Assembly: GCA_003116855.1 (NCBI GenBank)
Contig: BEWT01000011.1
Span: forward strand, 1 to 64,000
Direction of reading: 5' to 3'
DNA: 64,000 nucleotides
DNA from: Desulfurococcaceae archaeon AG1
Lineage (GTDB): Archaea > Thermoproteota > Thermoprotei_A > Sulfolobales > AG1
The position numbers and the translations under genes are program-made. Within the stretch, counting starts at the first letter, position 1. The number at the start of each line of letters is the position of its first letter. Below the pieces are notes generated by a model that did no database searches, was not told the DNA's origin, and was given only the letters and a program-made list of their open reading frames with translations. Positions 13,174 to 46,516 of the stretch are shown piece by piece.

Positions 13174-13440
13174 CCGTTTGTCCCTGGATGTTAATCCCAA
13201 TCACTTTATCTTCTCATGGTCAATCCAGGGGCTTCCACCTCAGCCCGCAGGGCCTCTAGCCCTGCAGGGTCATGGGCTGCCGTCGAGTCAAAGGGCACGC
13301 GGCTCCCATCTAGGTTGAGCCCTGGATGGCTTGGAGCGCTGCTCCCATCGCCGCCCGAGACCTGTGTGGGGGGACCCGCATCGAGAACCCCTTTCAAAGC
13401 TTATAGATACATCCTACGAGTATCAAAAAGAAAACAGCCC
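13174..13440 (-). mobile_element. TnpB-element relic A (internally deleted, both ends kept)
   Basis: On the minus strand, 13397-13206 still encodes the C-terminal tail of TnpB (GGDGSSAPSHPG, then DGSRVPFDSTAAHDP). It is followed by the 3' end shared with the complete element at 44520: CCGTTTGTCCCTGGAT at 13174-13189 and a matching inverted CCAGGGG segment near 13233. On the other side, AAAAAGAAAACAGCCC at 13425-13440 is identical to 45975-45990 upstream of the intact tnpB. About 1.2 kb of tnpB has been lost between the ends, so it is a 267-bp MITE-like derivative that needs a transposase in trans. Confidence 0.8.
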
Positions 13441-13616
13441 AGATATTCATTGATATTCTTTATTTTTCTTCTAGATCCTAAGGATTAAATGGATGGGATG
13501 ATAAAGAAAACCTGTGGCTAGATATAATCTATGGTTATAGAAGGGTCGAAAAACGTGGGGATATGTGGGCTGGTTTCTATAGGAAGATTTAATAAGACTG
13601 GGAGTAATATACTTCG

Positions 13617-14915
13617 GTGTCCACTATACGGATAGCTGTATTTATGGTCGCATCCCTCCTCTCGGATATTCAGAGAAGGTATGCTGAGGAGATGTATGAG
13701 GAGGTTAGGAAGAGGCTCTCATCCATAGGAGATTCATTCGAGTTCTCGCCCCTGATAACAAGCGCTGACCATGCTGAGCTAATGGCACGCAGGTATAGGG
13801 ATTGGGTCGATGGAGGAGTAGTTGTTGTATGGAGCGGTGGTACTGATAGAATGATCTATAGGGTTGGTAGGGAGTTTGGAAAACCCCTCCTGGTCTATGC
13901 CCATCCGGGTCATAATTCTCTAGCATCTGTTAGGGAGGCTGTGGCAGCCCTGAGATACGATGGTGTGGAGGTTGGTGTGAGCTATGGCGATGTACCAGAG
14001 GTTAGTGAGAAAGTCTCACCATTCATCAGTGTTCTGAGGGCTTTTGTAACGCTCCCAGGATCGAGGTTTGCCCAGATCGGTGAGCAGGAGCCATGGCTCC
14101 TGATTAGAAGGTCACCAGAGACCCTGAGGAAAAGGCTTGGGCTTGAGATGGTTAAGATCAGGTGGGAGGAGATGTTCGATATAGCTTTGAAAGCAGATGC
14201 TAGGGAGGTTGGTGAGAAGATCGCGTGGCTTAAAAACACGTTTGGGAAGGTGGATAGGAGTGACGATGATCTTGAGAAAGCCGTGAGGCTATATATAGGT
14301 ATGAGGGAGCTTGTTAAGAAATACTCTATATCCTCAGCAGCCGTTGAGGCCAGAGACATGCTTGACCTCTCCCTCAGGGATTGGGGCCCGTATCTAGGAG
14401 TAGCCCTTCTAAGCGATGACGGAATCCCCTCGGACTATGAGGGTGAGCATGATGCTGTGATAACAAAGCTAATAATACACCGCATGGTTGGGAGGGCATC
14501 GTTTATGGCTAACATAACAAGGATCAATGAGAGTGCCAATACAGCCGTGTTCTCCCACTGCACAGTACCAATATCAATGATAGATCCCAAGGCATCCGTG
14601 CTCCTCTCATACTACGAGACAGATAGAACAGTAGCTATAAGGGGTAAGATGAGAGAAGGCGAGACAGTCACGTTCGCAAGGATAGGTGGCAAGGATCTCG
14701 ACAAAATATTCTTCGGAACAGGGGTTATCGTGAACGGAGATCTCGGGAGAAAAGACCTCTGCAGAACACAGATCGAGGTGAAGGTTAATGGCAAGGTAAG
14801 GGATATCATAGACAAAGCCCTAGGCAACCACACAGTAGTGGTTTACGGCGATCTAAGAGAGCACTTCAGACTATTCAGCAAATTCTCATCACTCGAGCCT
14901 ATAGAGATCTCCTAA
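13617..14915 (+). CDS. L-fucose/L-arabinose isomerase-family protein
   Basis: 432 residues with the two-domain layout of FucI/AraA-like isomerases: an N-terminal Rossmann-like part (VVVVWSGGTDRMIYRV, VYAHPGHNSLASVREAVAAL) and a C-terminal part with GVALLSDDGIPSDYEGEHDA and a metal-binding-type histidine in FSHCTVPISM near residue 320. Members of this group lack close similarity to characterised FucI, so aldose-ketose isomerase activity is inference and the substrate is unknown. GTG start at 13617, with no clear Shine-Dalgarno. Monocistronic; the nearest downstream gene is convergent. Confidence 0.68.
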   Translation: MSTIRIAVFMVASLLSDIQRRYAEEMYEEVRKRLSSIGDSFEFSPLITSADHAELMARRYRDWVDGGVVVVWSGGTDRMIYRVGREFGKPLLVYAHPGHNSLASVREAVAALRYDGVEVGVSYGDVPEVSEKVSPFISVLRAFVTLPGSRFAQIGEQEPWLLIRRSPETLRKRLGLEMVKIRWEEMFDIALKADAREVGEKIAWLKNTFGKVDRSDDDLEKAVRLYIGMRELVKKYSISSAAVEARDMLDLSLRDWGPYLGVALLSDDGIPSDYEGEHDAVITKLIIHRMVGRASFMANITRINESANTAVFSHCTVPISMIDPKASVLLSYYETDRTVAIRGKMREGETVTFARIGGKDLDKIFFGTGVIVNGDLGRKDLCRTQIEVKVNGKVRDIIDKALGNHTVVVYGDLREHFRLFSKFSSLEPIEIS

Positions 14916-14937
14916 CCTAGCCTGACCCTTGGAATCC

Positions 14938-15759
14938 TCAGACCTCTTTCTCCATCCTCCTCTTAAGCTCTGCTACAAGAACATTTATCACATTATCCCT
15001 CAGGCTATCAAGGCTCCTCTTAATATAGTCTATATCATCCTCCACCTTTTTAAGCCTTGCATTTATACTCTCTATCTTCTCTGCCACCAGCTTGTCTCTG
15101 TTATCAATCCTCTCACCCAAGCTTTCTTCAACACTATTGATTCTCTCATTAAGACTTTTCTCAACGTTATTAATCCTTTCATTAAGGTTTTTCTCGGTAT
15201 TACTGATTCTATCTGTAAGACTTTTCTCAACGTTATTAATCCTTTCGCCAAGATCTTTCTCAACATTGTCAATCCTTTCGTTGAGGCTTTTTTCAACGTT
15301 GTTGATCCTTTCGTTGAGGCTTTTCTCGATGCTGTCAATTCTATCTGTAAGGCTTTTTTCAATACTGCTGATTCTCTCACTTAAGCTTTTTTCTACATTA
15401 CTGATTCTCTCACTTAAGCTTTTTTCAACACTATTGATCCTTTCATTTAGGTTTTTCTCAACATTGTCAATCCTTTCGTTGAGGCTTTTTTCAACGTTGT
15501 TGATCCTTTCGCTGAGGTTTTTCTCTATGTTGTTAATTCTTTCATTAAGACCTTTCTCAACGTTATTAATTCTTTCGCTTAGGCTTTTCTCAACACTACT
15601 TATCCTCTCATTCATAATGGATCTGGTATAGTCTATCATAAGTATCCCAACCTCCCAGTCGCTCAGCCTCTTACCTTTGGAGGCCTTCTCAACGATACGT
15701 TTAACATATTCTGCCAGGACGCTCTCGATAATCGACTTGGCAACAGATTCAGCCAACAC
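14938..15759 (-). CDS. Coiled-coil protein with 11-residue repeats, paralogue B
   Basis: 273 residues. N-terminal cap SVLAEYVKRIV (13-23) and LSDWEVG (32-38), then 15 near-identical 11-residue units of type RINNVEKSLNE covering residues 52-216, two decayed units, and a C-terminal cap (DDIDYIKRSLDSLRDNVINVL) ending RMEKEV. Both caps match the protein at 656-1297. The gene differs from that paralogue mostly in repeat number and in much higher repeat uniformity, which points to recent expansion by unequal recombination. No signal peptide or membrane helix. Function unknown. The nearly repeat-perfect DNA generates long hydrophobic shadow ORFs on the other strand which are not genes. Confidence 0.8.
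   Translation of the reverse strand: MLAESVAKSIIESVLAEYVKRIVEKASKGKRLSDWEVGILMIDYTRSIMNERISSVEKSLSERINNVEKGLNERINNIEKNLSERINNVEKSLNERIDNVEKNLNERINSVEKSLSERISNVEKSLSERISSIEKSLTDRIDSIEKSLNERINNVEKSLNERIDNVEKDLGERINNVEKSLTDRISNTEKNLNERINNVEKSLNERINSVEESLGERIDNRDKLVAEKIESINARLKKVEDDIDYIKRSLDSLRDNVINVLVAELKRRMEKEV
15112..15606. repeat. 33-bp tandem repeat array (15 units) inside coiled-coil gene
   Basis: Fifteen consecutive 33-bp units encode residues 52-216 of the coiled-coil protein. Each unit contains variants of CTTTTCTCAACGTTATTAAT on the plus strand. The register is exact, with no indels breaking the 33-bp period, so selection keeps the 11-residue reading frame. Substitutions cluster at the third and fourth residue of the unit (NN, DN, SS, SN) and at the Ser/Asn before the last Leu. 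Confidence 0.88.
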
Positions 15760-16005
15760 CTATGCCTCACAATATATGAGCCCAAGGATAAAAATAAGTA
15801 TCGAGATAGCTATTGAGCTGTGAAGATAACCATAGATCCAAGCTAGAATCCCTGTTATGTATCCCATATAAGATCGTAGGTAGAGATCTTCTAACGATTC
15901 TATGGGTAGGTAATTGGTGTTAGGGTTTGTAATAGATACAGGCGGCTCTGAGGATCTTCATGCTTGTTATTATCGATACCCAAGATCTCGTGTGGAGTTG
16001 AGATG

Positions 16006-17823
16006 CTACGGGGCTGGGGCTTCTGTTTCTTCGATCTTCTTCATCTGCCTTATATACATTTCGAGGAGCTCTTTCTCTGTGGTGGCGTCTTCTGGTTTTT
16101 TATCCATTCTCCATCTAATGAATCTCGGGAATCTTATCGAGATCCCTGCCCCCTGTCTTGCTGCGTCTTTGCAGCATGTGTGGAGGGGTGAGAGTGTTAG
16201 CTCTGCTCCTATTACCTCCATTACGAGTTGGGGGACTATCCATACATCTGGCTCTATATCCGATACTACTCTTGGGTGCCTATGCTTTATTATTAGTGGT
16301 TGGAGCATCTTGTTCATCTCAGCTAGATCCTGGTCTGTGAATCCTGTACCAACCTTGCATACCGTTTTGAACACATCCTTCTCCGGATCATAGGCTGCTA
16401 GGAGTACTGTTCCGAACAAGCCAGCCCTCCTCCCTCTCCCATAGAACGCTCCAACGACAACGAGATCCACGCTATCTATCATCTCGCTCTTATAATCCCT
16501 CTTGTACTTGATCCAGAGCCAGCCTCTCGCACCAGCCTGGTAGACTGCTTTTTGGTGGATTGCCTTAACCACTACTCCTTCGCACCCATCCTCTATAGCT
16601 TTTAGGAAGAATCTATCGAGATCTTCTGGATCCTCTACTACCATGTAGCTGGCTATTGAGAAGCTAGGCCCTTGTTCAACTATCTTCTCGAGGATCTCTC
16701 TCCTAACGGTGAAAGGCTTATCTGTAAGATCCTCGCCATCTACGTAGAGAGCGTCGAAGAGCTTTACAACGACTGGGTATTTCTTAGCAATATCGCTCAC
16801 ATCATGCTTCCTCTTCCTATGCATTAGCTCTTGGAAGGGTCTCATCTCCCCCGTCTCGGGGTCTATTGCTACTATCTCTCCCTCAACGATCGCCTCCCTA
16901 GCTTTTATATGCTTCCTAGCCATCTCCACGACGTCGGGGTATTGGTGGGTTATGTTTTCAAGCCTTCTCGAGAAGATCTGGATTGTGTCTCCCTTCTTAT
17001 GGATCTGGGCCCTCTCACCATCATATTTATACTCAGCAACACCTCTCCCACCAACCTTCTCAAGGATCTCTCTCGCGTTGTCAAGCCTCTCGGCAAGCAT
17101 TGGTCTGATAGGTATACCAACCTCCGGGGAGATCTTCTTGAGAGCCTCTATACCCTCTTTAGCAAGGATTTTCGCTATATTCCCAAGATCAGCCCTTAGG
17201 TTATAGGCTCTCTCAACAATAGGTCTAGCAGCATCGCTCCCACCAAAAGCCTGGGCAAGAGCATCCATTATCGTTGCATCCCCCACACCCAGCCTTAGAT
17301 TACCCTCAACAAGTCTCACGATATACTTAGCCTCTTTAGGCGATGCGTCTTGTAATAAGGAGACAAGGATCTTTATCTTAAGATCCCTAGAACCCTCGCC
17401 AACAAGCCTTGCAACCCTCGCCAAAGAGTTATAAACCTCAGATACGCTTAGCTTTCTAGTCTGCCCACCCATGAAAGCTATAAGACCTCCTGTGGGGGTT
17501 TTCTTAGAAGCCTTGAGCTGCTCAGCAGCCCTTCCCAGATCGCCTAGTCTTTTATATAGCTTCTCAACCTCCGATTCCGGTGTTGCTAATGCTAGGGAGA
17601 GGGCCTTGATCAGGAGCTTCTCCCCCACACCTATCTCAGGCTCTCCCTTCCACTGGGGCCATAGCTCTCCTTGGAGTAGATATACAACCTTATCTATATC
17701 CTCAGGATCTGCTTTTTTGAAGAGCTCCGTGAGTATCGCTGTCATCTGGATCCTGCTTGACGTGGTCTCAAGCCTCTCGAAAGTCTCTGAAAGTGTTTCA
17801 AATAGCATTGGTGCTATACCCAT
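16006..17823 (-). CDS. lig: ATP-dependent DNA ligase (archaeal Lig)
   Basis: About 605 residues, the usual size of archaeal LIG1-type enzymes. An N-terminal DNA-binding domain (about 1-220) precedes the adenylation domain with the catalytic lysine in EYKYDGERAQIH, then motif III (IFSRRLENIT), motif IV (EGVVVKA) and motif V/VI (GWLWIKYKRDY) and an OB-fold end. It seals nicks using ATP in replication and repair. The GGGTGA element on the minus strand lies 8 bases before ATG 17823, making that a better start than the GTG at 17835. The C terminus ends in acidic/Pro residues (EETEAPAP). The DHH gene lies just upstream on the same strand (gap about 40 bp). Confidence 0.95.
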   Translation of the reverse strand: MGIAPMLFETLSETFERLETTSSRIQMTAILTELFKKADPEDIDKVVYLLQGELWPQWKGEPEIGVGEKLLIKALSLALATPESEVEKLYKRLGDLGRAAEQLKASKKTPTGGLIAFMGGQTRKLSVSEVYNSLARVARLVGEGSRDLKIKILVSLLQDASPKEAKYIVRLVEGNLRLGVGDATIMDALAQAFGGSDAARPIVERAYNLRADLGNIAKILAKEGIEALKKISPEVGIPIRPMLAERLDNAREILEKVGGRGVAEYKYDGERAQIHKKGDTIQIFSRRLENITHQYPDVVEMARKHIKAREAIVEGEIVAIDPETGEMRPFQELMHRKRKHDVSDIAKKYPVVVKLFDALYVDGEDLTDKPFTVRREILEKIVEQGPSFSIASYMVVEDPEDLDRFFLKAIEDGCEGVVVKAIHQKAVYQAGARGWLWIKYKRDYKSEMIDSVDLVVVGAFYGRGRRAGLFGTVLLAAYDPEKDVFKTVCKVGTGFTDQDLAEMNKMLQPLIIKHRHPRVVSDIEPDVWIVPQLVMEVIGAELTLSPLHTCCKDAARQGAGISIRFPRFIRWRMDKKPEDATTEKELLEMYIRQMKKIEETEAPAP

Positions 17824-17864
17824 AATATGATTCACCCAGCATCCATATATCCTTATTAAAGAGT

Positions 17865-18875
17865 CTAGAGGCTATAAGATATCCTCCTCAACAGCTCGAG
17901 GGCTTCTCCAAGCCTGTTCTCAGGGATCCTTGCTATCCCTAGGGATGAGTGGCCTCCCACGTTAACAGCGATCCCAGATTCCCTCAGGATCCTTATAACC
18001 CTATAAGCCTTCCCAGGAAGCCTGGTTATTAGGAGCACGTGTCCCTCGCCCCCAGCTACACAGAGGATCACTGGGTTCCTCAGCTTTCTATAGAGTGCTG
18101 ATGCAAGGGCACTTGCACCCCTACCCTTCCATCTCTTCCTAGCATCGATGTATTTGAAGATCCCGAGCTTCTGGGCTGATATTGCTAGGAGATTAGCCTC
18201 CTCCTTGATCCTCTTATCAGCCTCTCTAGCGAGTCTAGCGATCTCCGCCATAGATTCCCCTGGTATGTTTGGGAGCGGTATTGGTGATGAGATCCACTCA
18301 ACAGCCCTTCTCCAGAGCGAGGGGTCTTTCTTACTCGCTAGGGCTTTAGAGATCCCTGAGACAACCCTGTAGAGGCTTATCATGTTGCTCGGGATCTTGA
18401 GACCCTGATCCATTAGATGGACCGCTTCGACAAAGGATCTCAACCTCTCGCTGGGCTTGAAGCCTGCTGAGACAGCTCTATCGAGAGCTATTCTTGAGGT
18501 GGGGACATAGCCTATTAGTGGCTCGTCAACCAAGCCGTAGAGATCCTCGAGCTTTTCGTGTGATGTTATATGGTGATCTATATAGATGATCCTGGAGGAG
18601 CCGCATCCAGATCTATAGGTTCTGAGAACGCTGAGAACAGGATCTATGAGGGGTATATCGAGGATAACGAGGGCATCATAACACTTACTCTTGGAGAGAA
18701 CTCTGGAGAGGTAGAGGGGCTCTGCAGGAGTATACTCGATCAAGGCTTCACCGTTAATGGGGTAGACGTTTCCATATCTCTGGGAGCTAACTATAACAGC
18801 GGAGGCTATGATACCATCAGCATCCCAGTCTCCAAAGACAGCCACTAAGGGTAGCCTGCTGCTCAACCCGCTCAC
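17865..18875 (-). CDS. DHH-family phosphoesterase (RecJ/GAN-like)
   Basis: 336 residues. Motif I GDWDADGI at 15-22, a DIP motif (ILDIPL), the DHH signature IDHH near residue 98, and a C-terminal DHHA1-type end (VNVGGHSSLGIARIPE), which carries GGH. Such proteins are Mn-dependent single-strand nucleases or cyclic-dinucleotide/nanoRNA hydrolases; the archaeal ones close to replication genes can be GINS-associated (GAN). Adjacency to the DNA ligase supports a DNA-replication or repair role, but the substrate is not determined. GTG start with GGATTATA just before it. Confidence 0.8.
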   Translation of the reverse strand: MSGLSSRLPLVAVFGDWDADGIIASAVIVSSQRYGNVYPINGEALIEYTPAEPLYLSRVLSKSKCYDALVILDIPLIDPVLSVLRTYRSGCGSSRIIYIDHHITSHEKLEDLYGLVDEPLIGYVPTSRIALDRAVSAGFKPSERLRSFVEAVHLMDQGLKIPSNMISLYRVVSGISKALASKKDPSLWRRAVEWISSPIPLPNIPGESMAEIARLAREADKRIKEEANLLAISAQKLGIFKYIDARKRWKGRGASALASALYRKLRNPVILCVAGGEGHVLLITRLPGKAYRVIRILRESGIAVNVGGHSSLGIARIPENRLGEALELLRRISYSL

Positions 18876-18950
18876 TATAATCCTTTTTAGGAGATATATA
18901 GGAGTTTATTTTGTTGTAGATAAATATGCATAGGTTTTCCAGGTTTTACC

Positions 18951-20423
18951 TCATGGTGTTAGATCGATATGGATCTTTGCATCGCCATCCATCTCCCTAA
19001 GCTCGAAACTCACTACTCCTCTATAGGCCTTGAGATCTAGTGTGTTCTTCCCACCCCTAATCAGGTGTTTCTCAGTACTCAGCATTCTTGGGGGTAGCGA
19101 GGCTTCGTACTCGTAAACCCTCAGCTCGTTATCCTTAGAGGCATAGATCGTTAGTGAAGCCCTACTTAGCGAAGACACCGGTATCCCTCCCCATCTCGTT
19201 GTACCGATGTCAAGTCCTCTCATGCTTATAGCAATGCTGCCTCCGCATCCTCTCATGAGAGTGTCTGTTGAGAGGATCAGTAGGCTTCTATCCCCCGTGT
19301 CAAGGTGGTTTGCGTCTCCCCCGCCCAGGTTTGGCTGTGTGTTTGCTCCCAGAACGATCTTATCTCCGAGGCTCTCTAGCGATGTTATCCTAGCTCCTAG
19401 GGGGCATAGGATCCTTATTGTTGGTGGGGCTATATATGTGAGGAGTGTTGGTGCTGGCGGGCTGTTAAGCCTTCTAGCAATCTCTAGGAGCTTCTCATCA
19501 GAGGCCCTCAGGATCCCGTGGGGATACGTGTTGAAAGGTACCAGGATCCCTCCTCCTAGGTGTGTGTATGATGTCCTCAAGGGCCCGTAGTCTGTTGATG
19601 GGAAGTCGAATAGTCTTAGGAAATATAGATCCTCGCCCTCCTTCTCCCAGGGCTCCCATATAATGAGACCCCCTCTCACGAAGACGAAGATCCTGTTATA
19701 CATGCTCGCCATAACCCCTACACCTGCTCTGGTCACGCTACCACCATCTACAGAGATCCTAGATAGATCTCCGGGGATTCTTTGGAACCATCTCCCCTCA
19801 ACAAGATCTAGGCACTGTATCCCCCTGAATCCTTCGAAGCCCATGGATATGTCGAAGCATGCCAGATCCCATAAAAGTGTTCCTTTAAGGCTTGGTCTAT
19901 CGCTAAGCCTCTCCGACTTACCATCGAGTGTTACTGAATATACTCCCAGGTTTGTGCTACCATCAGCCCTCGATACTAATAACCTCTGGCCTACTGGATC
20001 GTAGAGTATGTTTGAAACCTCCCCGACCCATGTATCTCTATAACCCCCTGTCTCGCTCCATAAGAGCCTTACCTCCTGCTCGTCTGCGTTGAAGACATGT
20101 ATATGTGAATACTTATTGCTGAAATCAACCCTCCTGTCATGGGATATGCTTATAGGTGCGTGAACCCAGCCTCCAAAAAAGATCTTGTTATCAATAGCAT
20201 CGGAGGCGTTATATGTATCACCACCAGATCTCGGGGGTTTTCCTATAAGGTCTAACCCATAGATCTTAACATGATCCTTTGAAACGAAATAAGCCTTGGC
20301 ATCCATGGATAGCATAAAATAGAGATAGCCTCCATGGTATTTTAGGCCAAAGATCCCTCCGGATCCCCATTCAGGCGATCTAGAAGATCCAAACCTATAC
20401 TGGCCCAGCCTCTCCAAAAGCAC
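18951..20423 (-). CDS. DUF2139 family beta-propeller-like protein
   Basis: About 490 residues, no signal peptide. The protein is built of repeated beta-strand blocks with aromatic/Gly turns (GLKYHGGYLYFMLS, NKIFFGGWVHAPIS, SVDGGSVTRAGVGVMASMYN) and a separate C-terminal beta domain (GKNTLDLKAYRGVVSFELREM). The pattern matches DUF2139, a family confined to Thermoproteota and of unknown function. The start is GTG 20423 or TTG 20417; the GGTG sequence that overlaps the first favours the second. Monocistronic, 75 bp from the DHH gene. Confidence 0.72.
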   Translation of the reverse strand: MLLERLGQYRFGSSRSPEWGSGGIFGLKYHGGYLYFMLSMDAKAYFVSKDHVKIYGLDLIGKPPRSGGDTYNASDAIDNKIFFGGWVHAPISISHDRRVDFSNKYSHIHVFNADEQEVRLLWSETGGYRDTWVGEVSNILYDPVGQRLLVSRADGSTNLGVYSVTLDGKSERLSDRPSLKGTLLWDLACFDISMGFEGFRGIQCLDLVEGRWFQRIPGDLSRISVDGGSVTRAGVGVMASMYNRIFVFVRGGLIIWEPWEKEGEDLYFLRLFDFPSTDYGPLRTSYTHLGGGILVPFNTYPHGILRASDEKLLEIARRLNSPPAPTLLTYIAPPTIRILCPLGARITSLESLGDKIVLGANTQPNLGGGDANHLDTGDRSLLILSTDTLMRGCGGSIAISMRGLDIGTTRWGGIPVSSLSRASLTIYASKDNELRVYEYEASLPPRMLSTEKHLIRGGKNTLDLKAYRGVVSFELREMDGDAKIHIDLTP

Positions 20424-20569
20424 CTAGCAGACCCCGTAGAGTTAGGGCTCTGGGGCTAGTAAGCATTGGTTCTCAGCAGGCTTGTCTCAACACTCCCTAC
20501 AAGATCCTTCCACGGTTGGGGAGAGTTGAAGGTTATAATATGTGGAATAATAATATGGTGGGGTTGTAA

Positions 20570-20851: not shown

Positions 20852-20859
20852 GTGGTGTG

Positions 20860-22114: not shown

Positions 22115-22115
22115 T

Positions 22116-26289: not shown

Positions 26290-26406
26290 CTGAGAGATCG
26301 TCGGAGGGCTTGAAGCGTGCTCCCATTATTCGGGCTAATGCTGAGATTAACTTGTAATGGATTCATATCGACCAGGTATAAATATTCGTAAGAGAGTAAC
26401 ATAGCC
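26290..26406 (-). mobile_element. TnpB-element relic D, strongly decayed
   Basis: GGCTTGAAGCGTGCTCCCAT at 26307-26326 matches the segment that encodes DGSSAPSH in the intact element (GGCTTGGAGCGCTGCTCCCAT at about 44651-44671) with one substitution and one deletion. It is followed by TATAAATATT...AAGAG...ATAGCC at 26378-26406, which parallels the left end of relic C (TATAAATCTT...AAGAAAATAGCC). The right terminus is not recognisable. The rest of the 26043-26679 gap contains an sRNA candidate and the hemerythrin promoter; I see no gene. Confidence 0.5.
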
Positions 26407-27499: not shown

Positions 27500-27694
27500 C
27501 ATCCCAAGTTTTATGAAGAAGTAGATGGTTTTTTAAAGCCCGCTATCTTTCGAAAGACATGTTAGTAGCTATCAGGATAACCCCAACCACACTACTAGAT
27601 GGAAGAGTTTGAAGTATACTAAAGACCGGTAGCTAGAGAAACACATAGGCTCTAGGGGTTATAGGGTATAAAGATCCCTGAGGAGATGCTTAGA

Positions 27695-28003
27695 CTGTTT
27701 TCTTTTTGATATACATATTGATATACATAGGAAGGGTTAATAGGTTTTAGGAATGTTCATGAGCATTGAGGATAGCATGCCCCAAAGCTGCCTCCCCATT
27801 GATACACAGGGGTTTTATAAACCTTGAAAGATATTATCCCCAGTGTGGGTCTCCCCACAAGCCCTAGGTGGGAGCCGCGTGCCGTTTGGCTCGACGGCCG
27901 CCCATGACCCCGCAGGATCTCTCTGATCCTGCGGGTAGAGGTTGAAGTCCCTGGATATGACCATGAATAAAGTGATTGGAATGAACATCCAGGGACAAAC
28001 GGT
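27695..28003 (+). mobile_element. TnpB-element relic B (internally deleted), plus orientation
   Basis: The left end CTGTTTTCTTTTT (27695-27707) is the reverse complement of the left end of relic A and the intact element. The right part encodes the tail GGSRVPFGSTAAHDPAG at about 27870-27920. It is followed by GTTGAAGTCCCTGGATAT and the terminus ATCCAGGGACAAACGG ending at 28003, which are shared with the element at 44520. Its length is 309 bp. Immediately outside the right end begins the coding fragment at 28012. A TATA-like TTTATAAACC lies inside, at about 27813. Confidence 0.78.
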
Positions 28004-29028: not shown

Positions 29029-29257
29029 TATATAGGGAGCTTCGAACCTATGCTTCCTACCAGTATTGGCTATGCGTGCTGGTGTCTCGTAATATGCCTG
29101 AGCCCCGCCTAGCCAGCTTAGTAGTGGCCAGCTTTTTAGCGAGGGGTCTGATGCTTCGACTAGGTTTGGTGTTACTCCATTGAATCTCCATCTATCAGGC
29201 TCCAGATCCTTCTCACAATACTCCGCCTTTCAATTCTATAGTAGATCGACTCTGCGG

Positions 29258-29427
29258 GATCGTAGACCGCTTCGAGTCCAACGGCGTGGAACTCCCATCT
29301 ACCAGGGGATCATCCTCTGGATGGCTTGAAGCAATGGTTCCATCACCACCCAGAGTTAGTATAGAGATCAACTCATCATCAAAACAGTATCGATCAAAGC
29401 CTATAAATCTTTATTAAGAAAATAGCC
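29258..29427 (-). mobile_element. TnpB-element relic C between the reductase operon and its chaperone
   Basis: CCTCTGGATGGCTTGAAGCAATGGTTCCATCACCACCCAGAG (about 29331-29372) is the decayed copy of the segment for GGDGSSAPSHP in tnpB; read on the minus strand it still gives GGDGTIASSHP. The left end AAGAAAATAGCC at 29416-29427 corresponds to AAGAAAACAGCC of the intact element and is preceded by CCTATAAATCTTT. The right terminus is not recognisable below about 29258. Confidence 0.6.
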
Positions 29428-29589
29428 TACAGCTATTGATTAGGGTTAAGGATTACGTAGTTGATGTTGAGGCAATATCGGTTGTTATAAAGTTTGGGCT
29501 CTATGGGTAGAGGTACGGAAAATCTATATAGGATTCTCCGTGTGTGGGGATAGATTGGATAAAAAAGGGTTGTTTGGTTTGGGTTATTT

Positions 29590-35196: not shown

Positions 35197-35201
35197 GGGG
35201 A

Positions 35202-38832: not shown

Positions 38833-38933
38833 ATCTCATTCCAAGAGCATTTATGCTCGAAGCCTATAAGCGTTTTCTCTGTGGGATCTTGTTATTGCTT
38901 ATCAACTCCTTAGCATTATCATTAAGGGGTCTC

Positions 38934-39797
38934 TTGAGCGTTAGGAGAGTTACTCCAAGTGATTTCATTAAAGCTAAGAAGAGGGGTGAGAAGATAGTTA
39001 TGGTCACAGCGTATGATTATTACCAGGCTAGAGCGGCTGACGAGGCTGGTGTTGACGGTATTCTTGTCGGTGACTCTCTGGGAATGGTTGTGATGGGTTT
39101 TCAATCAACCCTCCCAGTTACTATGGGTATGATCCTTCACCACCTAAGGGCTGTTGTGAATGCTAATCCAAGGAGTCTTGTTGTTGCTGACATGCCCTTC
39201 ATGAGCTACGAGCTTGGGAGAAAAGAGGCTCTTAGGAATGCCTCTAAGCTTATAAGGAGAGGCGCTGGGGCTGTGAAGCTCGAGGGGGGTATCGAGATCG
39301 TTGGGATCGTTGAGAGCCTGGTGAAAGCCGGGATCCCTGTTATGGGGCATCTAGGGCTGAACCCGCAGAGGTCTCTTGCAAGGGGTATGGGGCTGAAAGG
39401 TAAGAAGGCTGACGAGGCTCTGGAGCTTATCGAGGCTGCCCATGCTTTGGAAGAGGCGGGTGTTTTCTCAATAGTTATAGAATATACTGCGCGCGAGGTT
39501 GCCGAGATTATTACGAAGAGGCTCAGGATCCCGACTATATGTATAGGCTCGGGTCCAGGTTGTGATGGGCAGATCCTTGTGTTCCACGATCTGGTGGGTC
39601 TTAACCCAAACCCTCCGCCCTTTGCTAAGAAGTATAGCGATGCATATAGGATCTTTGTGGATGCTATTAAGAGCTATGCTGATGAGGCTAGAAGGGGTCT
39701 TTTCCCTGACGTTGCTAGGTATTGGAGCATGGATCCAGAGGAGCTTGTTGCTTTGGATAATGCTTTGAAGAGGCAGAAGGAGTCTGGATCCCGTTAG
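38934..39797 (+). CDS. panB: 3-methyl-2-oxobutanoate hydroxymethyltransferase
   Basis: 287 residues. KetoPantoate synthase motifs: MVTAYDYYQAR, DGILVGDSLGMV (metal ligand Asp), GHLGLNPQR, IGSGPGCDGQILVFHDLVG. It makes ketopantoate for coenzyme A from ketoisovalerate, thus drawing on the Val pathway encoded at 21-24 kb. The frame is open from 38823, but family similarity begins at RRVTPSDFIKAKKRG; TTG 38934 with AAGGGG in front is the best start. ATG 38823 would overlap rpl14e. Confidence 0.95.
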   Translation: MSVRRVTPSDFIKAKKRGEKIVMVTAYDYYQARAADEAGVDGILVGDSLGMVVMGFQSTLPVTMGMILHHLRAVVNANPRSLVVADMPFMSYELGRKEALRNASKLIRRGAGAVKLEGGIEIVGIVESLVKAGIPVMGHLGLNPQRSLARGMGLKGKKADEALELIEAAHALEEAGVFSIVIEYTAREVAEIITKRLRIPTICIGSGPGCDGQILVFHDLVGLNPNPPPFAKKYSDAYRIFVDAIKSYADEARRGLFPDVARYWSMDPEELVALDNALKRQKESGSR

Positions 39798-39807
39798 GTT
39801 TTCAGCT

Positions 39808-40293
39808 CTATCTTCTTTCGCCAATGCTTTTTAGGATGTCTGTGCCTGATATTCTATTATATAGTGGGAGGATCATTAGATATGCTAGGAAGCTGATCCA
39901 GACTATATATACGTAGCAGATACTCCTACCCTCGACAACGATCTCGATCTCTATTGGGGGTGGGAGGGAGCATGTACCTGGTGCTGCAAGACCTCTTTCA
40001 CCGAACACGGCGTAGCTGTAGAGGAGTACGAGTACCATCATTATCAGCGGTATTGTCGCCATTATCATTGTTACTCTGAATATTCTGCCCCTAAGCCTTC
40101 TATACCTCATCCCAATCACGCCCGCCTTTTTCTTAGACTTTACCTTCGATGCCTTCTCTATGTCTCTAGCTATTCTTGGAACCTCGCCTGCTATTCTCTC
40201 GGGCTTCACGCTTCTCCTGATAAGATAGGCTGAGATCAGTACGAGGTAGATCGTCATGATGGTGATGTGTATCGCGTATATATTTGGTATCAT
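39808..40293 (-). CDS. DUF106/EMC3-TMCO1-like membrane protein (YidC superfamily)
   Basis: About 161 residues. One N-terminal membrane helix, a charged cytosolic coiled-coil-like hairpin rich in Lys/Arg (KASKVKSKKKAG...MRYRRLRGRIFRV), then two further helices. This is the layout of archaeal DUF106 proteins, members of the Oxa1/YidC superfamily that insert membrane proteins and sit next to secY-adk or rpl34e-cmk in archaea. Start taken as ATG 40293 (or GTG 40296); the upstream frame to 40341 has no family resemblance. Divergent from rpl34e with 60 bp between. Confidence 0.78.
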   Translation of the reverse strand: MIPNIYAIHITIMTIYLVLISAYLIRRSVKPERIAGEVPRIARDIEKASKVKSKKKAGVIGMRYRRLRGRIFRVTMIMATIPLIMMVLVLLYSYAVFGERGLAAPGTCSLPPPIEIEIVVEGRSICYVYIVWISFLAYLMILPLYNRISGTDILKSIGERR

Positions 40294-40352
40294 CACGATA
40301 CATAGACCTAAAAGTCTTTTAAGCCTTAGTGATATAAACACCCCAGAGAACC

Positions 40353-40625
40353 ATGGTGAGCCCGAGGCTCAGGTCGAGGTCTCTCAAAAGGATTAAGGTT
40401 AGAACACCCGGGGGTAACACGGTAACTCATTATAGACGGGATACCAGGGTTATAGCTAGGTGTGGCAGATGCGGTGCTGTGCTCAACGGTGTTCCGAGGG
40501 ATATGGGGGATCTTAGGACACTGCCAAAGAGCTCTAAGAGGCCTAACAGGCTTTTTGGCGGGATGCTCTGCCATAGATGCCTTGAGGAGATCCTTAAGGA
40601 GAGTATCAGGAGTAGTGGGTTATGA
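40353..40625 (+). CDS. rpl34e: Ribosomal protein L34e
   Basis: 90 residues, start MVSPRLRSRSLKRIKVRTPGG, then two zinc-binding pairs, CGRC near 37-40 and CHRC near 78-81. An archaeal/eukaryotic large-subunit protein. Its stop overlaps the cmk start (ATGA at 40622-40625), so cmk is translated by coupling. Confidence 0.96.
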   Translation: MVSPRLRSRSLKRIKVRTPGGNTVTHYRRDTRVIARCGRCGAVLNGVPRDMGDLRTLPKSSKRPNRLFGGMLCHRCLEEILKESIRSSGL

Positions 40626-41191
40626 GGAGCAGGGGGATGGTTATAGCGATCAGCGGCCCCCCAGGATCTGGGAAGTCAACATTAGCATCTATGGTTGCTA
40701 GGGAGCTTGGGCTGAGGTACCATTCCACAGGCTCTATATTTAGGAGTATCGCTGCTCAGCGGGGTCTCTCGGTGGAGGAGCTGGATTTGGTTGCTGAGCA
40801 AGATCCCTCAATAGATCTTGAGATAGATAATAAGGCTAAGGAGGAGGCTATGAGAGGAGATATAGTTATTGAGGGGCATATAGCGACATGGATGGTTAGG
40901 GAGTATGCTGATCTTCTAGTCTATGTCACAGCACCTTTCGAGACAAGGGCTAGGAGGGTTTCTGAGAGGGATGGGATAGATCTTGGGGAGGCTATGAGGA
41001 GGATAAGGGTTAGGGAGGAGGCTATGAGGAGAAGGTTTAAGAAGCTATATGGAATAAACATAGATGATCTGAGCATCCACGATATAGTGATCAACACCGA
41101 GAGGATTGATCAGGAGACCATGGTGAGGATCATAGTAACAGCTGCACAAGAGATAATGTACAAGAGATCTCAGCACCATGGAGGTCTATAG
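40622..41191 (+). CDS. cmk: Cytidylate kinase (archaeal type)
   Basis: 189 residues. P-loop GPPGSGKST near residue 13, the CMP-binding region GLRYHSTGSIFR, and the lid with RVSERDGIDLGEAMRRIRVREEAMRRRF (about 120-147). It phosphorylates CMP and dCMP. Order rpl34e-cmk-methylase with 4-bp and 14-bp overlaps indicates one transcript. Confidence 0.95.
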   Translation: MRSRGMVIAISGPPGSGKSTLASMVARELGLRYHSTGSIFRSIAAQRGLSVEELDLVAEQDPSIDLEIDNKAKEEAMRGDIVIEGHIATWMVREYADLLVYVTAPFETRARRVSERDGIDLGEAMRRIRVREEAMRRRFKKLYGINIDDLSIHDIVINTERIDQETMVRIIVTAAQEIMYKRSQHHGGL

Positions 41192-41801
41192 ATGCCCAAA
41201 CCCCGAGGAGCAGATCTATAGGCCGTCTGACGACACCTACCTGCTTGCAGAAACCCTCCTAGGATCTCAAGAAGACCTTCATAGATCAAGGATCATACTA
41301 GATCTGGGAGCCGGAAGCGGCTACATAGCCCAGCAGATATGCCTAGAACTCATAAAGAAAGACATTTTTCACGAAATAGTTGCAATCGATATAAGTCCAT
41401 GCTCTATCGAGTATATGAGGAAACATCTATCTAGAGAATGTGCGGATTACATCTTTCTCATGCAGTGCGACGGCGCCTCATGCCTCAGAGAAGAGAGCAT
41501 AGATCTCGTGGCAATAAACCCCCCATACCTCCCAGTGAATGAGAGAAGCACGTGGTTCGAGATCTCGTGGAGCGGTGGAGAGCGGGGCGTTGATAGAGCC
41601 ATAGAGATGGTTAAGAGCGTTCTTAAACCGCTCTCAAGACAAGGATTTATATATATAGTGTTATCCTCACTAGGAGATCTAGGCCTCTTTGAAGATAGTA
41701 TGAGAGCAGAAGGTCTCACCTATAGGATCATAGCTAGGAAGAAGCTCTTCTTCGAAGAGTTGGTGGTCTATAAACTTAAACGTAATTCGGAGCTATTCTG
41801 A
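41178..41801 (+). CDS. HemK/Mtq2-like N-glutamine methyltransferase
   Basis: 207 residues. Begins with the Mtq2-type substrate entry YRPSDDTYLLAETL, then SAM motif I DLGAGSGYIAQQI, an acidic ribose-binding residue in AIDISP, and NPPYLP, the catalytic NPPY of PrmC/HemK enzymes that methylate the GGQ glutamine of release factor. In archaea and eukaryotes the Mtq2-Trm112 pair does this; I see no Trm112 here. Overlaps cmk by 14 bp. Confidence 0.86.
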   Translation: MEVYRCPNPEEQIYRPSDDTYLLAETLLGSQEDLHRSRIILDLGAGSGYIAQQICLELIKKDIFHEIVAIDISPCSIEYMRKHLSRECADYIFLMQCDGASCLREESIDLVAINPPYLPVNERSTWFEISWSGGERGVDRAIEMVKSVLKPLSRQGFIYIVLSSLGDLGLFEDSMRAEGLTYRIIARKKLFFEELVVYKLKRNSELF

Positions 41802-41918
41802 CCTACTGTTGATCTTCATCATGCTGGGTCTTCTCACGATCAAAGATAAAGCATGTTTACTAGAAAGAGCGATTGTTAAATACAAAGATTGGTGGTAAAG
41901 TGGGTTTAAAAAAGGATC

Positions 41919-43452
41919 TTAGAATATCTTTATACCTAGCAGTTGTCCTAGTATGAATACTGATATGAAGAAGAACATGCATATGGCGCTGAAGAGTATT
42001 ATTGGTGGCCAGTAGTACCACTTCAGCCTTATTTCTTTGGGTAGCTTTCTGTTAATGTTCCATAGCAGGAGCCATGCGTAGAAGCCTCCGAAGTTAGCGA
42101 TATTAGCCGAGATCAGTAGAAGGACTAGCGGGGGTGCCTGCCATATAGCCCACATGGCAAACGCTGTATATCCGAGGAAGAATGTGTAGTAAACCCTCCT
42201 GACATCGCCCTTAGCCCATCTCCTAACACGCTCGGAGGTGCTCCAGAGTATGTCGGTAACGTTCCTGGTTAGCATATCCATGATCTGTAGCTGGGTTGTC
42301 CATAATATCAAGAAGCCTATGAGGGCTATGAAGTAGAAGCCTATTGGCCCCCATCTGGCGCCGAACTCGTTTGCTACATGGGCGGCAATGCCCCAGGCAG
42401 GTAGATCTGTGCCTAGGGGTACTACGCTTCTAACCATAATGGATGGTAGAACCATGCCTAGGAAGGCGAAGGTTGCGAATATTAGCCACTGATCGGCCAT
42501 TATTAATCTCTCCCAGAGCCTCCAGGTTGCTAGGTTTTCAGGGGTTATTTTGAATATTTTTCCTGTGGCTGATAGCTCTATCTTTTTACCGCCGATCATT
42601 GCTGGTATGTAGCCGACTAGATAGCTCATGCCATAGCCTTTATCTCTATAGTAGTTGGTTAGTAGGTAGTTGAATGCCGAGGCCCAAGCTATATATGCCC
42701 ACCAGCCTCCGAGGAGGAAGATATCTACTCCTTGTGGTATATAGCCTATACTTGTAAAGCCTACTAGCAGCTCGTTCCACACCTCAGGTGTAACAACCAT
42801 CAGTGCTAAGATAAATACAGATATAGTGATAAAGATGATAAGGTATCTGAAGATCAGCTCCAGGGTTGCAGCTATTTTACCTCCTATCATTACTATTAGG
42901 AGGGCTAGTAGGAATAGAGCCATACCTAGATACCTTACAAAGGCTGCCTCCCCAGCCCCTGGTACTCGGCCTAGAATGAATACCCCCAAGCCTGTAGCAG
43001 CTGCTAAAGCCCAGCCAGGCCATACGTAGCCAATAATTAGTGCAGCTGTTAGGAATGGTATCCAGAAGGCTCTGGGCTTATTCCTGGCCATATAGACTAG
43101 TGCTGGCTCGCCTATGGCTGCGGTGACTCTTGCGAAGGCTATATTATATATTGTCTGTAATACTACGCCGATCCATACTAGCCAGAACAGACCAAGCCCG
43201 TATTTAGCTGCCACCGCAGGGCCTAGCAGCCATTCCCCGCTACCTATAGCCCCGCCCAGGGCTATGAATGCAGGGCCTAGCATTGCTGCATAGATCTTCC
43301 AACAAGAAGGCTTGGAGACGTTGAATACTTCCTGAGGAGTTGGTAGCTTTTCAACAACCTCTAGAGCAGGGCCCTCACCGAGGGGGAATGTCTCCTTATA
43401 CCTTCTCGAGCTTCACAGCAGCTTTACTATCATCGTTGTTGTTGCCGCCCAC
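41919..43452 (-). CDS. Nramp-like metal transporter, with a 5' frameshift
   Basis: The main frame from ATG 43283 encodes 454 residues with about 11 membrane helices; it lacks the first helix of its family start. Reading upstream, the same frame continues without any ATG, GTG or TTG through YKETFPLGEGPALEVVEKLPTPQ. In the +1-shifted frame a well-led start (GAGGTGCTCTTC then GTG 43452) encodes GGNNNDDSKAAVKLEK and hits TAA at 43396. One +1 shift at GAGAAGGTATAAGG fuses both into one protein of about 505 residues. Either a mutation, a sequencing error or a frameshift site. The transporter should import Mn2+/Fe2+ or a related ion. Confidence 0.72.
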
Positions 43453-43490
43453 GAAGAGCACCTCTTCGCACTCTATTATTCAAACTAAGC

Positions 43491-43530
43491 TTATAAATCT
43501 TAATTCAAACTTATAAATCTTAATTCAGAG
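43491..43530 (-). promoter_or_regulatory. Tandem duplicated promoter (2 x 20 bp) of the Nramp-like gene
   Basis: TTATAAATCTTAATTCAAAC (43491-43510) is followed directly by TTATAAATCTTAATTCAGAG (43511-43530), 17 of 20 bases identical. On the minus strand each copy carries AAGATTTATAAG, a TATA box with an upstream purine-rich BRE-like sequence. The nearer copy predicts transcription from about 43465-43470, just before the GTG at 43452. The remaining 43531-43822 shows no gene. Confidence 0.55.
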
Positions 43531-43822
43531 ATTAACGATAATATAATTAAGACTAATAGGTACCATAGGTATTATACATTGATATAATGCTTTTTGAAAG
43601 TCGAGCCTTATAAATGAGGTATAGTTTGGCTGGGGATAAAAAAATTTTTCAATATACATATATGAGGTATGTAGAACCTTATCGCAGGATATATAGGATA
43701 TACGATGAAATATGGGGGCTTGTCTGAATCGATAATTTGGCGGACAAACCAGCTCGAAGATTCGAGTTAGGAGAAAAAGAGCCTCGGGGATCTCGAGGAA
43801 CTTTATCTTCGCGCGCTGCTTT

Positions 43823-44519
43823 TCATATTCTAAATGTTGGTATGAAGACCTGGATTAGCTGTATTATTCCGTATGGTAGGTACACGGCAATACCTATTGT
43901 TGCTAGTATTACCACCACTATGTGGGGTCTATAGGGCTTTGGTAGGTATCTCATGTTTAGGTAGAGCAGTGCTATGCCCCATAGGGCTAGGGCGAAGAGA
44001 TGGGTAGCAGCAGTTGCGAAAGCCGCTAGCATTGGTAGTGAGAAGCCTGTGATGAATAAGATGCTACCAACTATAACTAGGTAGGGCCATAGATATAGCC
44101 TGACCTTGTTGGGGGTGATATCGACAGCCTTTCTAAACGTGCCCCTCAGCATATCGTAGATCGTCCACATATATACCTCGTGGAGCGAGTAGAAAGTTCC
44201 CCAGAGTGCGAAGAATGCACCAAGCCACCATATAACCCCTGCCCAGGGTCCCAAGGTCTGGGTGAGCCATGCCACCTGGGCTGCGACTAGTGCAAGGCCT
44301 GAGGGCGCGGTGTGCATTGGGCGCAGAACCTCTATAGTTAGTATTACAGCAGGCATTGTCACGATGAATACCATGAAGAACGATAGCCCGACATCGAATT
44401 TAACTGGTAATAGCCAGCCTCTCAACCTCCTTCGCGTCTCTTCATCCTCGGGTATAGGTAGTTTTGATAACCCAGTAATGTGAACCCTCTTTAACATCTC
44501 ATCCGAGAATCTCACCAAA
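43823..44519 (-). pseudogene. Second Nramp-like gene, 5' half lost at transposon insertion
   Basis: The fragment encodes about 230 residues that align by pattern with the second half of the intact neighbour: LPVKFDVGLSFFMVFIVTMP parallels LIMADQWLIFATFAFLG, and PHIVVVILATIGIAVYLPYGI the final helix. Its first half is found neither beyond the element (45991-46516) nor elsewhere in the window, so insertion was followed by deletion, or the element sits at a genuine boundary. The two transporter genes lie in tandem, so this could be a duplication whose first copy was destroyed. Confidence 0.7.
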
Positions 44520-45847
44520 CCGTTTGTCCCTGGATATGAAGGAATATCCAGGGACTTCAACCTCGCCCACAGGGATCTCTTTATCCCCATGGGTTCATGG
44601 GCTGCCGTCGAGCCAAACGGCATGTGGCTCCCATCTAGGTTGAACCCTGGGTGGCTTGGAGCGCTGCTCCCATCACCACCCAGGGCTTTTAACAATAAAT
44701 TATAGCATGCAACGACATCCCTATGCCATTTCTCCCTACCTAGCGAGCATATACCTATTCTCGAGCCGTTATATTTTATTTCTGATCTATGTATTGGGCA
44801 TTGCTTAGATGTATTCCTAGGATTAACATAGATTACTGGGACGCTGTGTTCTTTAGCCTTCTCCTCAATGGCTCTCTGGATGCCTTTGAATGCTGCTTGG
44901 AAGATCCTGTGTCTTAATTGCTCATCCCTAATCCTGGAGATCATGTTCTCAGCAGGCTTATCGCCGAGATCCTCGAGAACAACACCATATCCATGTTTTA
45001 ATGCCTCTCTAACGATTATGTTCGCTACCTTCCATCTGGTATTGTCTTTCTTTTCTTCCTCCCTAAGCTTCCTCAAGATCTTCCTCTTAGCACGGCATCT
45101 AGCATCGTAGATCTTATCGTATTTCTCCTGAACCCTCTTCCTCCTATAATAATAGCCAAGTGTTATTTTCTCAATATTTGTTTCAAATAGATATACCTTT
45201 CTGTTTATAAGCACTGCTACATTATTCTCATTAACATCCACAGCTATATAACCACTAGGCTTATATAACCTAACATCCTTTCTAAAAATGAGATATATGA
45301 TCAACCTTCTTTCCTTTCTATCAAGCTTTATCCTTGCCTCAGAAGCTAATCTCCAGCCGGAGTTGATATATTTATAGAATTGCTTGTGAGGAACTAGATC
45401 TACCTTGATCAATCCTCTATGCGTCGATATAGCTATCCTTGTTAAGCCCTCAAGCCTCCATAGGTGGTCGTCTAGCCATATCGAGATCCTCCTCACGCTA
45501 GGATATTCCTTATTCGTTGATCCTTCTTTCTTTAGCTTTAGAAAACTCTTAACCCTTGTGGATGCATCCTGACAAGCCGTGTGAACATAGTGCGATGGTA
45601 GGTGGGGATAGAGGTTACGCATCTCTCGGTATTTTAGGGCTTTAAGTTTTATGAATGATGTTATCCCCTCTTTAGCAGCACATATTACTAGCTGCTCAAC
45701 CACATTCCTATACGTATCCTCAAGTTCTATGAAAATCCTGAACAGTTTCTTAGGTATCCTCTCAGATCTAACAATAACCGTTCTCGTAACAATCGAAGCA
45801 TCTTCTCCATCGGTAAGCGCTAGGGATGCTTGTAAGAAGCAGCCCAC
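43823..45847 (-). CDS. TnpB RNA-guided nuclease fused in frame to the C-terminal half of an Nramp-like transporter
   Basis: 674 codons. Residues about 20-442 are TnpB of the IS605/IS1341 type: N-terminal HYVHTACQDASTRVKSF and SIWLDDHLWRLEG, RuvC-I Asp in IAVDVNENNV, RuvC-II Glu in VVLEDLGDK, a CPIH/GIC zinc-finger-like loop and RuvC-III Asp in WHRDVVACYNLL. The RuvC catalytic triad is intact. At residue 443 (position 44519) the element ends and the frame reads on into GLVRFSDEMLKR and about five membrane helices of a second Nramp-like protein. The usual TnpB stop is missing. GTG start at 45847. The chimera might be made, or the membrane part might be silent passenger. Confidence 0.8.
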   Translation of the reverse strand: MGCFLQASLALTDGEDASIVTRTVIVRSERIPKKLFRIFIELEDTYRNVVEQLVICAAKEGITSFIKLKALKYREMRNLYPHLPSHYVHTACQDASTRVKSFLKLKKEGSTNKEYPSVRRISIWLDDHLWRLEGLTRIAISTHRGLIKVDLVPHKQFYKYINSGWRLASEARIKLDRKERRLIIYLIFRKDVRLYKPSGYIAVDVNENNVAVLINRKVYLFETNIEKITLGYYYRRKRVQEKYDKIYDARCRAKRKILRKLREEEKKDNTRWKVANIIVREALKHGYGVVLEDLGDKPAENMISRIRDEQLRHRIFQAAFKGIQRAIEEKAKEHSVPVIYVNPRNTSKQCPIHRSEIKYNGSRIGICSLGREKWHRDVVACYNLLLKALGGDGSSAPSHPGFNLDGSHMPFGSTAAHEPMGIKRSLWARLKSLDIPSYPGTNGLVRFSDEMLKRVHITGLSKLPIPEDEETRRRLRGWLLPVKFDVGLSFFMVFIVTMPAVILTIEVLRPMHTAPSGLALVAAQVAWLTQTLGPWAGVIWWLGAFFALWGTFYSLHEVYMWTIYDMLRGTFRKAVDITPNKVRLYLWPYLVIVGSILFITGFSLPMLAAFATAATHLFALALWGIALLYLNMRYLPKPYRPHIVVVILATIGIAVYLPYGIIQLIQVFIPTFRI
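44520..44700 (-). ncRNA. Putative omega-RNA (reRNA) scaffold of the TnpB element
   Basis: In IS605/IS1341 elements the guide RNA scaffold overlaps the 3' end of tnpB and runs to the right terminus, with the guide being the first bases outside it. Here the 3' segment is the most conserved part among the intact element and relics A and B, even where the tnpB frame is lost, and contains the 12-bp hairpin next to the terminus. The guide would be the 16-20 bases below 44520 on the minus strand, which lie in the interrupted transporter gene. Inference from family architecture. Confidence 0.5.
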
Positions 45848-45990
45848 CAGAATATGCTTAGTGAGAGCCTTATAAATCTTTCCCTATAGTATTGATTGTG
45901 AATAGCTTCTCAACATTATAAGCTTCAATAGTTAGGGATGCCTCTAAAGCTTACAAACATTTCCTGAGAGCATAAAAAAGAAAACAGCCC
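44520..45990 (-). mobile_element. IS1341-type insertion element (tnpB only), complete
   Basis: The right end begins at CCGTTTG (44520) and carries a perfect 12-bp stem (GTCCCTGGATAT 44526-44537 with ATATCCAGGGAC 44544-44555, six-base loop), the structure bound by TnpA transposases. The left end is defined by AAAAAGAAAACAGCCC at 45975-45990, shared with relic A. There is no tnpA, so it moves only in trans. Between tnpB's zinc-finger/RuvC-III end and the right terminus lies the expected omega-RNA scaffold. Length 1471 bp. Confidence 0.8.
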
Positions 45991-46516
45991 TATATAGGGA
46001 CTTCTGAGGCATAACGTATAGAGATAGGTTGAATGGGGATTTGTAAAAACACTTAAGAGGCTAGAAATTAAGAGATCGCTTCTACAAGCAGATAGAAGCG
46101 ATATATAGAGCACAAGGCAGGTAGCTAGGTCACGTCGATAATCTAGAGGTAAGCGATAATGACGCATCTATAGTGGCTGACATTTCGAATACGGAGTTCA
46201 TAAAAGATCCTTGATAAGTTTGTAGTGATCACAAGCTAGATAAAGCCGTATAATAAGCCAGTTCTATTAATAGTAGGTCGCGAGAGGCACGGCTGATCTG
46301 CTGAATGTAGTACTAAAGATAACGCTGGGCCTGACTTTATAGGTAGACTAGGTTTTTGTGAGATCTTTGAGTAGCAAATAGCTTTCTATGTGAGAGCAAT
46401 GAGCAATACTTCAAGAAGATCTCTGGATTGCTCTGTATAGTTAAATAGCTATATGGCTATTTGTTTACGTGGTTATTAGTTATTAATACCTTAGGATCTA
46501 TAGAAACGAAGGCTGG
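45991..46516. other. Gene-free 526-bp segment with a 10-bp hairpin
   Basis: After the transposon left end there is no ORF I can support; short frames are interrupted. The segment contains a perfect stem-loop at 46075-46102 (arms ATCGCTTCTA and TAGAAGCGAT, loop CAAGCAGA) without a T run behind it, and just before 46516 an AT-rich promoter-like stretch (TTATTAGTTATTAATACC) for the methylase-like gene. The hairpin may be the only remnant of an RNA or of another mobile element. Confidence 0.4.

Follow-up and report, generated by a model that had tools for sequence, protein, structure and literature searches.

Elements of the IS607 family, such as ISC1926 and ISC1904, encode a TnpA of the serine-recombinase type together with TnpB, and serine recombinases act on double-stranded DNA. 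For IS607 TnpBs, reRNAs derived from RAGATH-18 have been described, with the reported TAMs AGGAG or GAGGG (PMC11061315). Among archaeal MITEs, SMN1 (320 bp) and SM3A (164 bp) of Sulfolobus were described with terminal inverted and direct repeats (PMC3718332). CRISPR-like repeats on mobile elements are also on record. On viruses and plasmids, solitary repeats serve as RNA anti-CRISPRs (PMC10651486), and ChIP-seq in Sulfolobales showed that Cbp1 binds 21-bp CRISPR-repeat-like sites in ISC1229 (IS110) transposons (PMC10883916).

The window analyzed here is a 64-kb stretch of DNA on contig C11 of a 2.0-Mb genome in 28 contigs (G000) from a heat-loving archaeon; judged by the neighboring genes, it is Desulfurococcaceae/Pyrodictiaceae-like. 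It holds members of a transposon family that shares its TnpA type, GG cores, TnpB and a 3' omegaRNA region with ISC1926/ISC1904-type elements and differs from them in that a single autonomous copy supports four TnpB-only copies and a large number of MITEs with the RNA scaffold retained. As with the RAGATH-18-derived reRNAs, a structured RNA lies 3' of tnpB, the putative guide is the right flank and a G-rich motif stands beside the left end; however, only the GG of the TAM is common to both, Rfam gave no match, and in the short copies the scaffold is present without tnpB. Like SMN1 and SM3A, these short copies are non-autonomous, multicopy and presumably moved in trans, but they have IS607 ends without repeats and retain a guide-RNA scaffold.

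The assignment to IS607 was based on the recombinase and on the ends. The preliminary description had proposed a search for a tnpA elsewhere, and one with the same ends was found on contig C4: the sole serine recombinase gene of the genome (C4:18863-19261), which adjoins a tnpB. The family ends enclose both genes in an element of 1957 bp (C4:18609-20565), the only copy with a recombinase. The protein carries PF00239 (3.7e-26) and an N-terminal HTH_17/MerR domain, as expected for an IS607 TnpA, and its catalytic part matched ISC1926 TnpA 6dgc at 4.5e-61. Y1_Tnp (PF01797) was absent from the genome (94.8% complete) in a profile search in which the positive controls matched. At the left ends, G was found at position -1 in 25/25 copies and at position -2 in 22/25; at the right ends, the two positions were G in 15/17 and 16/17. 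Insertion at GG was therefore seen across copies, and no flank motif besides GG was found beside the family ends. No precise empty site was recovered for family copies, so we only infer that there is no target duplication. A TnpB with hairpin ends would by itself hint at the IS200/IS605 type, but such membership was refuted by the tests run and is extremely improbable, given a genome without Y1_Tnp, a serine recombinase bracketed by the family ends, and the GG cores. Together with the ISC1926 match and the HTH domain, these results identify the family as IS607 type.

Features of the family in the window, with positions and the evidence for each
Feature	Position	Strand	Evidence
TnpB-only IS607-type element, 1471 bp, without tnpA	44520..45990	-	left and right ends with GG cores
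Left end GGGCTGTTTTCTTTTTTAT	45972..45990	-	pattern match, 0 mismatches
tnpB coding part inside the element	44520..45847	-	PF07282, E 4.8e-11; RuvC residues
omegaRNA-like scaffold and right end (S1-S4, ending ATCCAGGGACAAACGG)	44520..44699	-	profile 151.7 bits; structure model
Relic A: complete 267-bp MITE with both termini and the full scaffold	13174..13440	-	ends and profile searches
Relic B: no more than a short, decayed piece, without termini	26290..26406	-	no left-end or right-end profile match
Relic C: complete MITE of ~310 bp, both termini, scaffold without hairpin S1	27692..28002	+	ends and profile searches
Relic D: degenerate left end and decayed scaffold	29251..29428	-	left end 14.4 bits; scaffold 51.6 bits, profile positions 5-118 only
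Relic D CRISPR repeat GTCGATCTACTATAGAATTGAAAG, replacing the scaffold 3' module	29227..29250	-	24/24 to the C15 array repeat

The 1471-bp element of the window is itself non-autonomous and is one of the four TnpB-only copies, with 86-87% identity to the other three. PF07282, the mark of a TnpB nuclease, was present in all four and in the autonomous copy. Judged by sequence, the RuvC residues of the 1471-bp element are the D of DVNENN, the E of VLEDL and the D of HRDV, and this D/E/D set was kept in all TnpB copies; the zinc knuckle was degenerate in the TnpB-only copies. The tnpB frame of the 1471-bp element lacks a stop up to the right end and continues to 43823, into a host gene. The right end abuts an Nramp-like transporter gene exactly at the GG core (window 43823-44521, minus strand; L178:2487-3953). 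The abutting part encodes the C-terminal 234 residues, at 73% identity, and the N-terminal half was found neither beside the left end of the element nor among the fetched loci, indicating that the gene was broken and the locus rearranged. In another TnpB-only copy (C13:24971-26471), the inner loop of the S1 hairpin is inverted relative to all others with pairing kept, and the copy reads LERCSHHHP where the others read DGSSAPSHP.

According to the preliminary description, four relics in the window keep the DGSSAPSHP tail, and relics A and B have the termini of the 1471-bp element. The tail is indeed present in relic A, but relic C lacks the corresponding hairpin, relic D reads DGTIASSHP and relic B has lost the frame. 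The termini are present in relic A and also in relic C, whereas relic B has neither; its similarity to the family was limited to 47 bp at 77% identity to the copy at C10:54957 (E 1e-5, 210-bp subject), and its place as a member with ends had to be given up. The reading of relic D, which spans 29227-29428 including the repeat, as a plain deletion derivative found no support either: its right end is a host CRISPR repeat rather than that of the family. Its scaffold folded no better than shuffled sequences (z of -0.22), and its repeat is perfect. The clustering of relics at 26-29 kb is real, although the count includes the weak relic B. It is one of four triplets within 6 kb in the genome, against 0.28 expected, a number that 0/5000 simulations reached. 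This clustering can be explained by insertion tolerance rather than by a target site. At the window start (1-62, plus strand), a tRNA gene is cut.

The family was then counted in the whole genome. The left-end pattern GGNCTRTTTTCTTTTTNAT, allowing at most 2 mismatches, occurred at 32 sites, versus 0 for the reversed control, and the right-end/scaffold profile matched about 40 places. DNA searches gave 40 matches with the 1471-bp element and 46 with relic A, and the family occupies about 43 places altogether. When the ends were paired, 18 MITEs with two ends and 5 copies with repeat tails emerged, besides 1 autonomous copy, 4 TnpB-only copies, 1 tnpB piece in a degenerate state and about 13 pieces with a single end; these numbers rest on search matches, and they are firm for the two-ended MITEs and approximate for the one-ended pieces. 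The 18 two-ended copies are 267-359 bp long with GG at both ends. Being short, multicopy, without a transposase gene and with ends common to the autonomous element, they are MITEs. Many copies have no second end or no S1, which means that part of the family is decaying. The further copies with identical ends predicted in the preliminary description were thus borne out, and the two outcomes it had named as fatal, termini that fail to align and a lack of further copies, are both excluded. Its picture of a MITE-like family that preserves both ends together with the guide-RNA scaffold held, but the origin from the one TnpB element of the window did not, because there are four such elements and the left-end subtypes differ.

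To describe the scaffold, 24 MITE right ends were aligned (alignment A1) and modeled with seven named helices, including S1 outer and inner, S2 with a pseudoknot, S3 and the terminal S4. Paired cells made up 86.7% of the model, compared with 36-48.3% when the alignment was slid and 85.2% in column-preserving shuffles, so that the gain over the latter was small. The covariation score was 0.171, compared with 0.076-0.098 when slid, and 0/500 shuffles reached it. Double changes occurred in 7 of the 10 pairs of S1 outer, and compensatory changes were found in both S1 and the pseudoknot. RNAalifold gave a z of -7.4 against column shuffles, and folds of single copies gave -3.8 and -5.4. The right end therefore carries a conserved structured RNA, as in omegaRNAs and reRNAs, although part of the signal may be a legacy of ancestors with TnpB and not the result of selection in the MITEs. 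No Rfam family matched the scaffold, so a known RNA family does not account for it, and the omegaRNA assignment is founded on position, structure and linkage to TnpB. The TnpB reading frame was open in just 3/22 MITEs and lost in 19/22, which rules out a coding role for the TnpB tail. A TATA-like box, GGTATTTATAAG, was present in 16/21 copies, with about 1 expected. Because the substrate of IS607 recombination is duplex DNA, it is simpler to read the hairpins as RNA than as DNA signals. With the TATA box and the covarying scaffold kept and the frame lost, the short copies look like trans-acting omegaRNA units.

A subset of copies ends differently. The repeat of a GTC-type CRISPR array (C15:251883-258113) is identical to the tail of relic D, and four other copies have such tails, at C15:275110 (24/24), C10:55150 (23/24), C3:65386 and C6:63026 (both degenerate). 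All five lack S4 and the 3' arm of S3; the repeat starts in their place, in the sense orientation. Identity among four copies in this genome was 90% for the repeat versus 71% for the scaffold. The tail of relic D is a solitary repeat unit (SRU), a single full-length repeat of the host type outside arrays, and similar ones occur in two relatives, G001 and G004 (see below). On the scaffold tree, repeat-tailed and hairpin-tailed copies were interspersed, with 5 changes among 25 copies, and a single clade of hairpin copies had a p-AU of 0.03, indicating that tails have been exchanged. Assembly chimaeras are an unlikely origin, given at least 30 copies in three genomes with matching junctions and running into unique flank. 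The exact 21-nt repeat core was not found in viruses of IMG/VR, and the right flanks of repeat-bearing copies did not qualify as spacers: their matches among the fetched loci were to themselves or to common ends only.

The genome also encodes CRISPR machinery. A type I-A operon (C5:114-120 kb) encodes Cas7, Cas5, Cas3', Cas3'' and Cas6, and a second, stand-alone cas6 lies on C4 (C4:67196). A family right-end fragment (C4:68267-68328) is located ~0.6 kb from the latter. Spacer 55 of a further array (C15:239-245 kb) is 42 nt long and codes for KLYGMRSHKYEKV, the motif that is conserved in the tail of IS607 TnpA (KLYGMRSH); such transposons or their carriers are thus CRISPR targets. The resident IS607 elements were rejected as targets of host spacers, since none lay within 10 substitutions and the resident TnpA gene was too mismatched for spacer 55.

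In relatives, repeat tails were found on other transposons. The same-genus genome G001 has 21 IS605-type MITE copies, unrelated to the IS607 family described above, with left end AACTGAAAGCCTCGTCCTTTAGGGCGGGG after TTAC and with the repeat GATCTACTATAGAATTGAAAG where full TnpB elements have a closing stem and the terminal hairpin TAGCCCAAACCTCCCCGCCC...GGGC. Its arrays have a GAT-type repeat, the same as that carried by its MITEs. In 14/21 copies, the repeat was followed directly by the transposon end GGGAGGAGGTCAG, and in 7/21 it was followed by unique flank. Those 7 copies stop exactly at the 3' end of the repeat (loci L185-L194 and L228-L245 cover the G001 set). In G004, a genome of the same family, at least 6 MITE copies are repeat-tailed, also of IS605 type and on a different scaffold (L196, L197 and L258-L261); no match to Cas6 was found in G004. 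Identity of repeat versus scaffold was 97 versus 75% in G001 and 97 versus 68% in G004, and at most 2 deviations occurred at any position of the 27 repeat cores (21 nt). The IS605-type junction has a 4-nt microhomology, GATG. Among 229 genomes of the class, the junction of the repeat with a GGGAGG end was detected only in G001; the G004 ends are one base shorter and were missed by this pattern. In L233 and L240 (G001) and L258 (G004), the tail is followed by one to two extra tandem partial units, TAGAATTGAAAG, which correspond to the last 10-12 nt of the repeat. We found no published case of a fusion between a MITE scaffold and a CRISPR repeat in the part of the literature covered.

Taken as a whole, we consider it probable that this is a non-autonomous IS607-type family in which the MITEs serve as omegaRNA units and a repeat-tailed subclass has turned to host factors. 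The single IS607 recombinase on C4 would move any copy with two ends, inserting it at GG. We infer that transcription of a short copy starts from its own TATA box, passes through the scaffold and continues into the neighboring chromosomal DNA. The product would be an omegaRNA with the right flank of that same copy as its guide. Once a MITE has excised, TnpB from the TnpB-only copies, acting in trans, may cleave the empty site that has been rejoined, and the MITE would thereby be copied back. With such reliance on TnpA and TnpB in trans, both the TnpB-only and the short copies would parasitize tnpA, and the short copies would exploit tnpB as well. Should the omegaRNAs of the short copies be functional, non-autonomous elements too would be retained through TnpB, and a single nuclease would protect dozens of loci by means of a separate guide for each. 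This would explain the persistence of the MITEs. It is rather doubtful that the copies are instead ordinary decaying MITEs moved by the IS607 TnpA, with a leftover scaffold and no guide RNA in use. The many copies that are one-ended or without S1, the unstructured scaffold of relic D and the modest excess over the shuffle control on pairing fit that reading, but the compensatory changes in S1 and the pseudoknot, the conserved TATA box and the structure kept though the frame was lost argue against it, and an IS607 TnpA acting on duplex DNA needs no hairpin DNA signals.

In the repeat-tailed copies, including relic D, the guide-adjacent module of the scaffold has been swapped for the host CRISPR repeat, which would leave them hardly able to serve TnpB any more. 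They more likely engage the host CRISPR machinery, through Cas6 processing or as RNA anti-CRISPRs, or Cbp1, and these roles, together with inert capture, are the candidates for the repeat. If Cas6 cut their RNA, ends would fall at ATAG/AATTGAAAG. That the copies act as putative RNA decoys or anti-CRISPRs, with Cas6 binding or cutting the repeat, crRNA maturation disturbed and the transposon protected, is quite possible, though we put it below an even chance. The repeat is exactly that of the host array wherever arrays were seen (GTC type here, GAT type in G001), it follows a promoter in the sense orientation, its core is conserved at all 21 positions, and Cas6 with a type I-A operon is present, as is the host spacer for KLYGMRSH. 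There is also precedent in the Racrs, solitary repeat units of phages and plasmids (PMC10651486), which are alike in being single host-matching repeats on mobile elements behind promoters. In contrast, the elements here are chromosomal MITEs rather than viruses or plasmids, with many copies per genome and the repeat fused to a truncated omegaRNA scaffold; G004 lacks a Cas6 match, and the mismatches of the resident TnpA gene to spacer 55 do not help. A broader version, which we offer tentatively, is that IS607 and IS605 MITEs swapped the TnpB-binding module for the host repeat in parallel, so that omegaRNAs were re-tooled into CRISPR RNAs and the scaffold-repeat-flank transcript would be handled by Cas6/type I-A as a decoy, a regulator or a crRNA against its own flank. 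It is somewhat unlikely that the repeat is a putative DNA site for Cbp1, a crenarchaeal repeat-binding factor, affecting transcription or transposition. The 21-nt core resembles the published motif, and the ChIP-seq sites in ISC1229 are likewise 21 bp, CRISPR-repeat-like and in crenarchaeal transposons. Unlike those sites, however, the repeats here are exact, lie in IS607 and IS605 types and replace the omegaRNA 3' module; moreover, the published sites are unbiased at repeat positions 13-14, whereas the 27 cores are conserved throughout, which leans, though not strongly, toward a repeat read as RNA. An inert capture, in which the repeat came from the arrays through template switching or homologous exchange and was kept identical by gene conversion, seems unlikely: it agrees with the GATG microhomology and the exchanged tails, but the same site was struck in two unrelated transposon families, and the spacers or further repeats often expected from conversion tracts are absent. 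Rarer than the omegaRNA-like MITEs, the repeat tails would be a natural contact point between transposon guide RNAs and CRISPR RNAs. They occupy the same position in two transposon families that are unrelated to each other, and the remainder of the element is less well conserved. This recurrence and conservation make it directly testable how guide-RNA systems exchange parts.

Repeat-like sequences were also seen away from the family. Further solitary repeats without an adjoining scaffold lie at C4:101476-101496 and C5:107372-107395, the latter 1.3 kb from an array and on the opposite strand. At C15:251.7 kb, the leader of the GTC-type array holds the degenerate repeat-like motifs GTCGATCTCCTATAGAACTGAG and ATCGATCTGCTATAGAGATAG.
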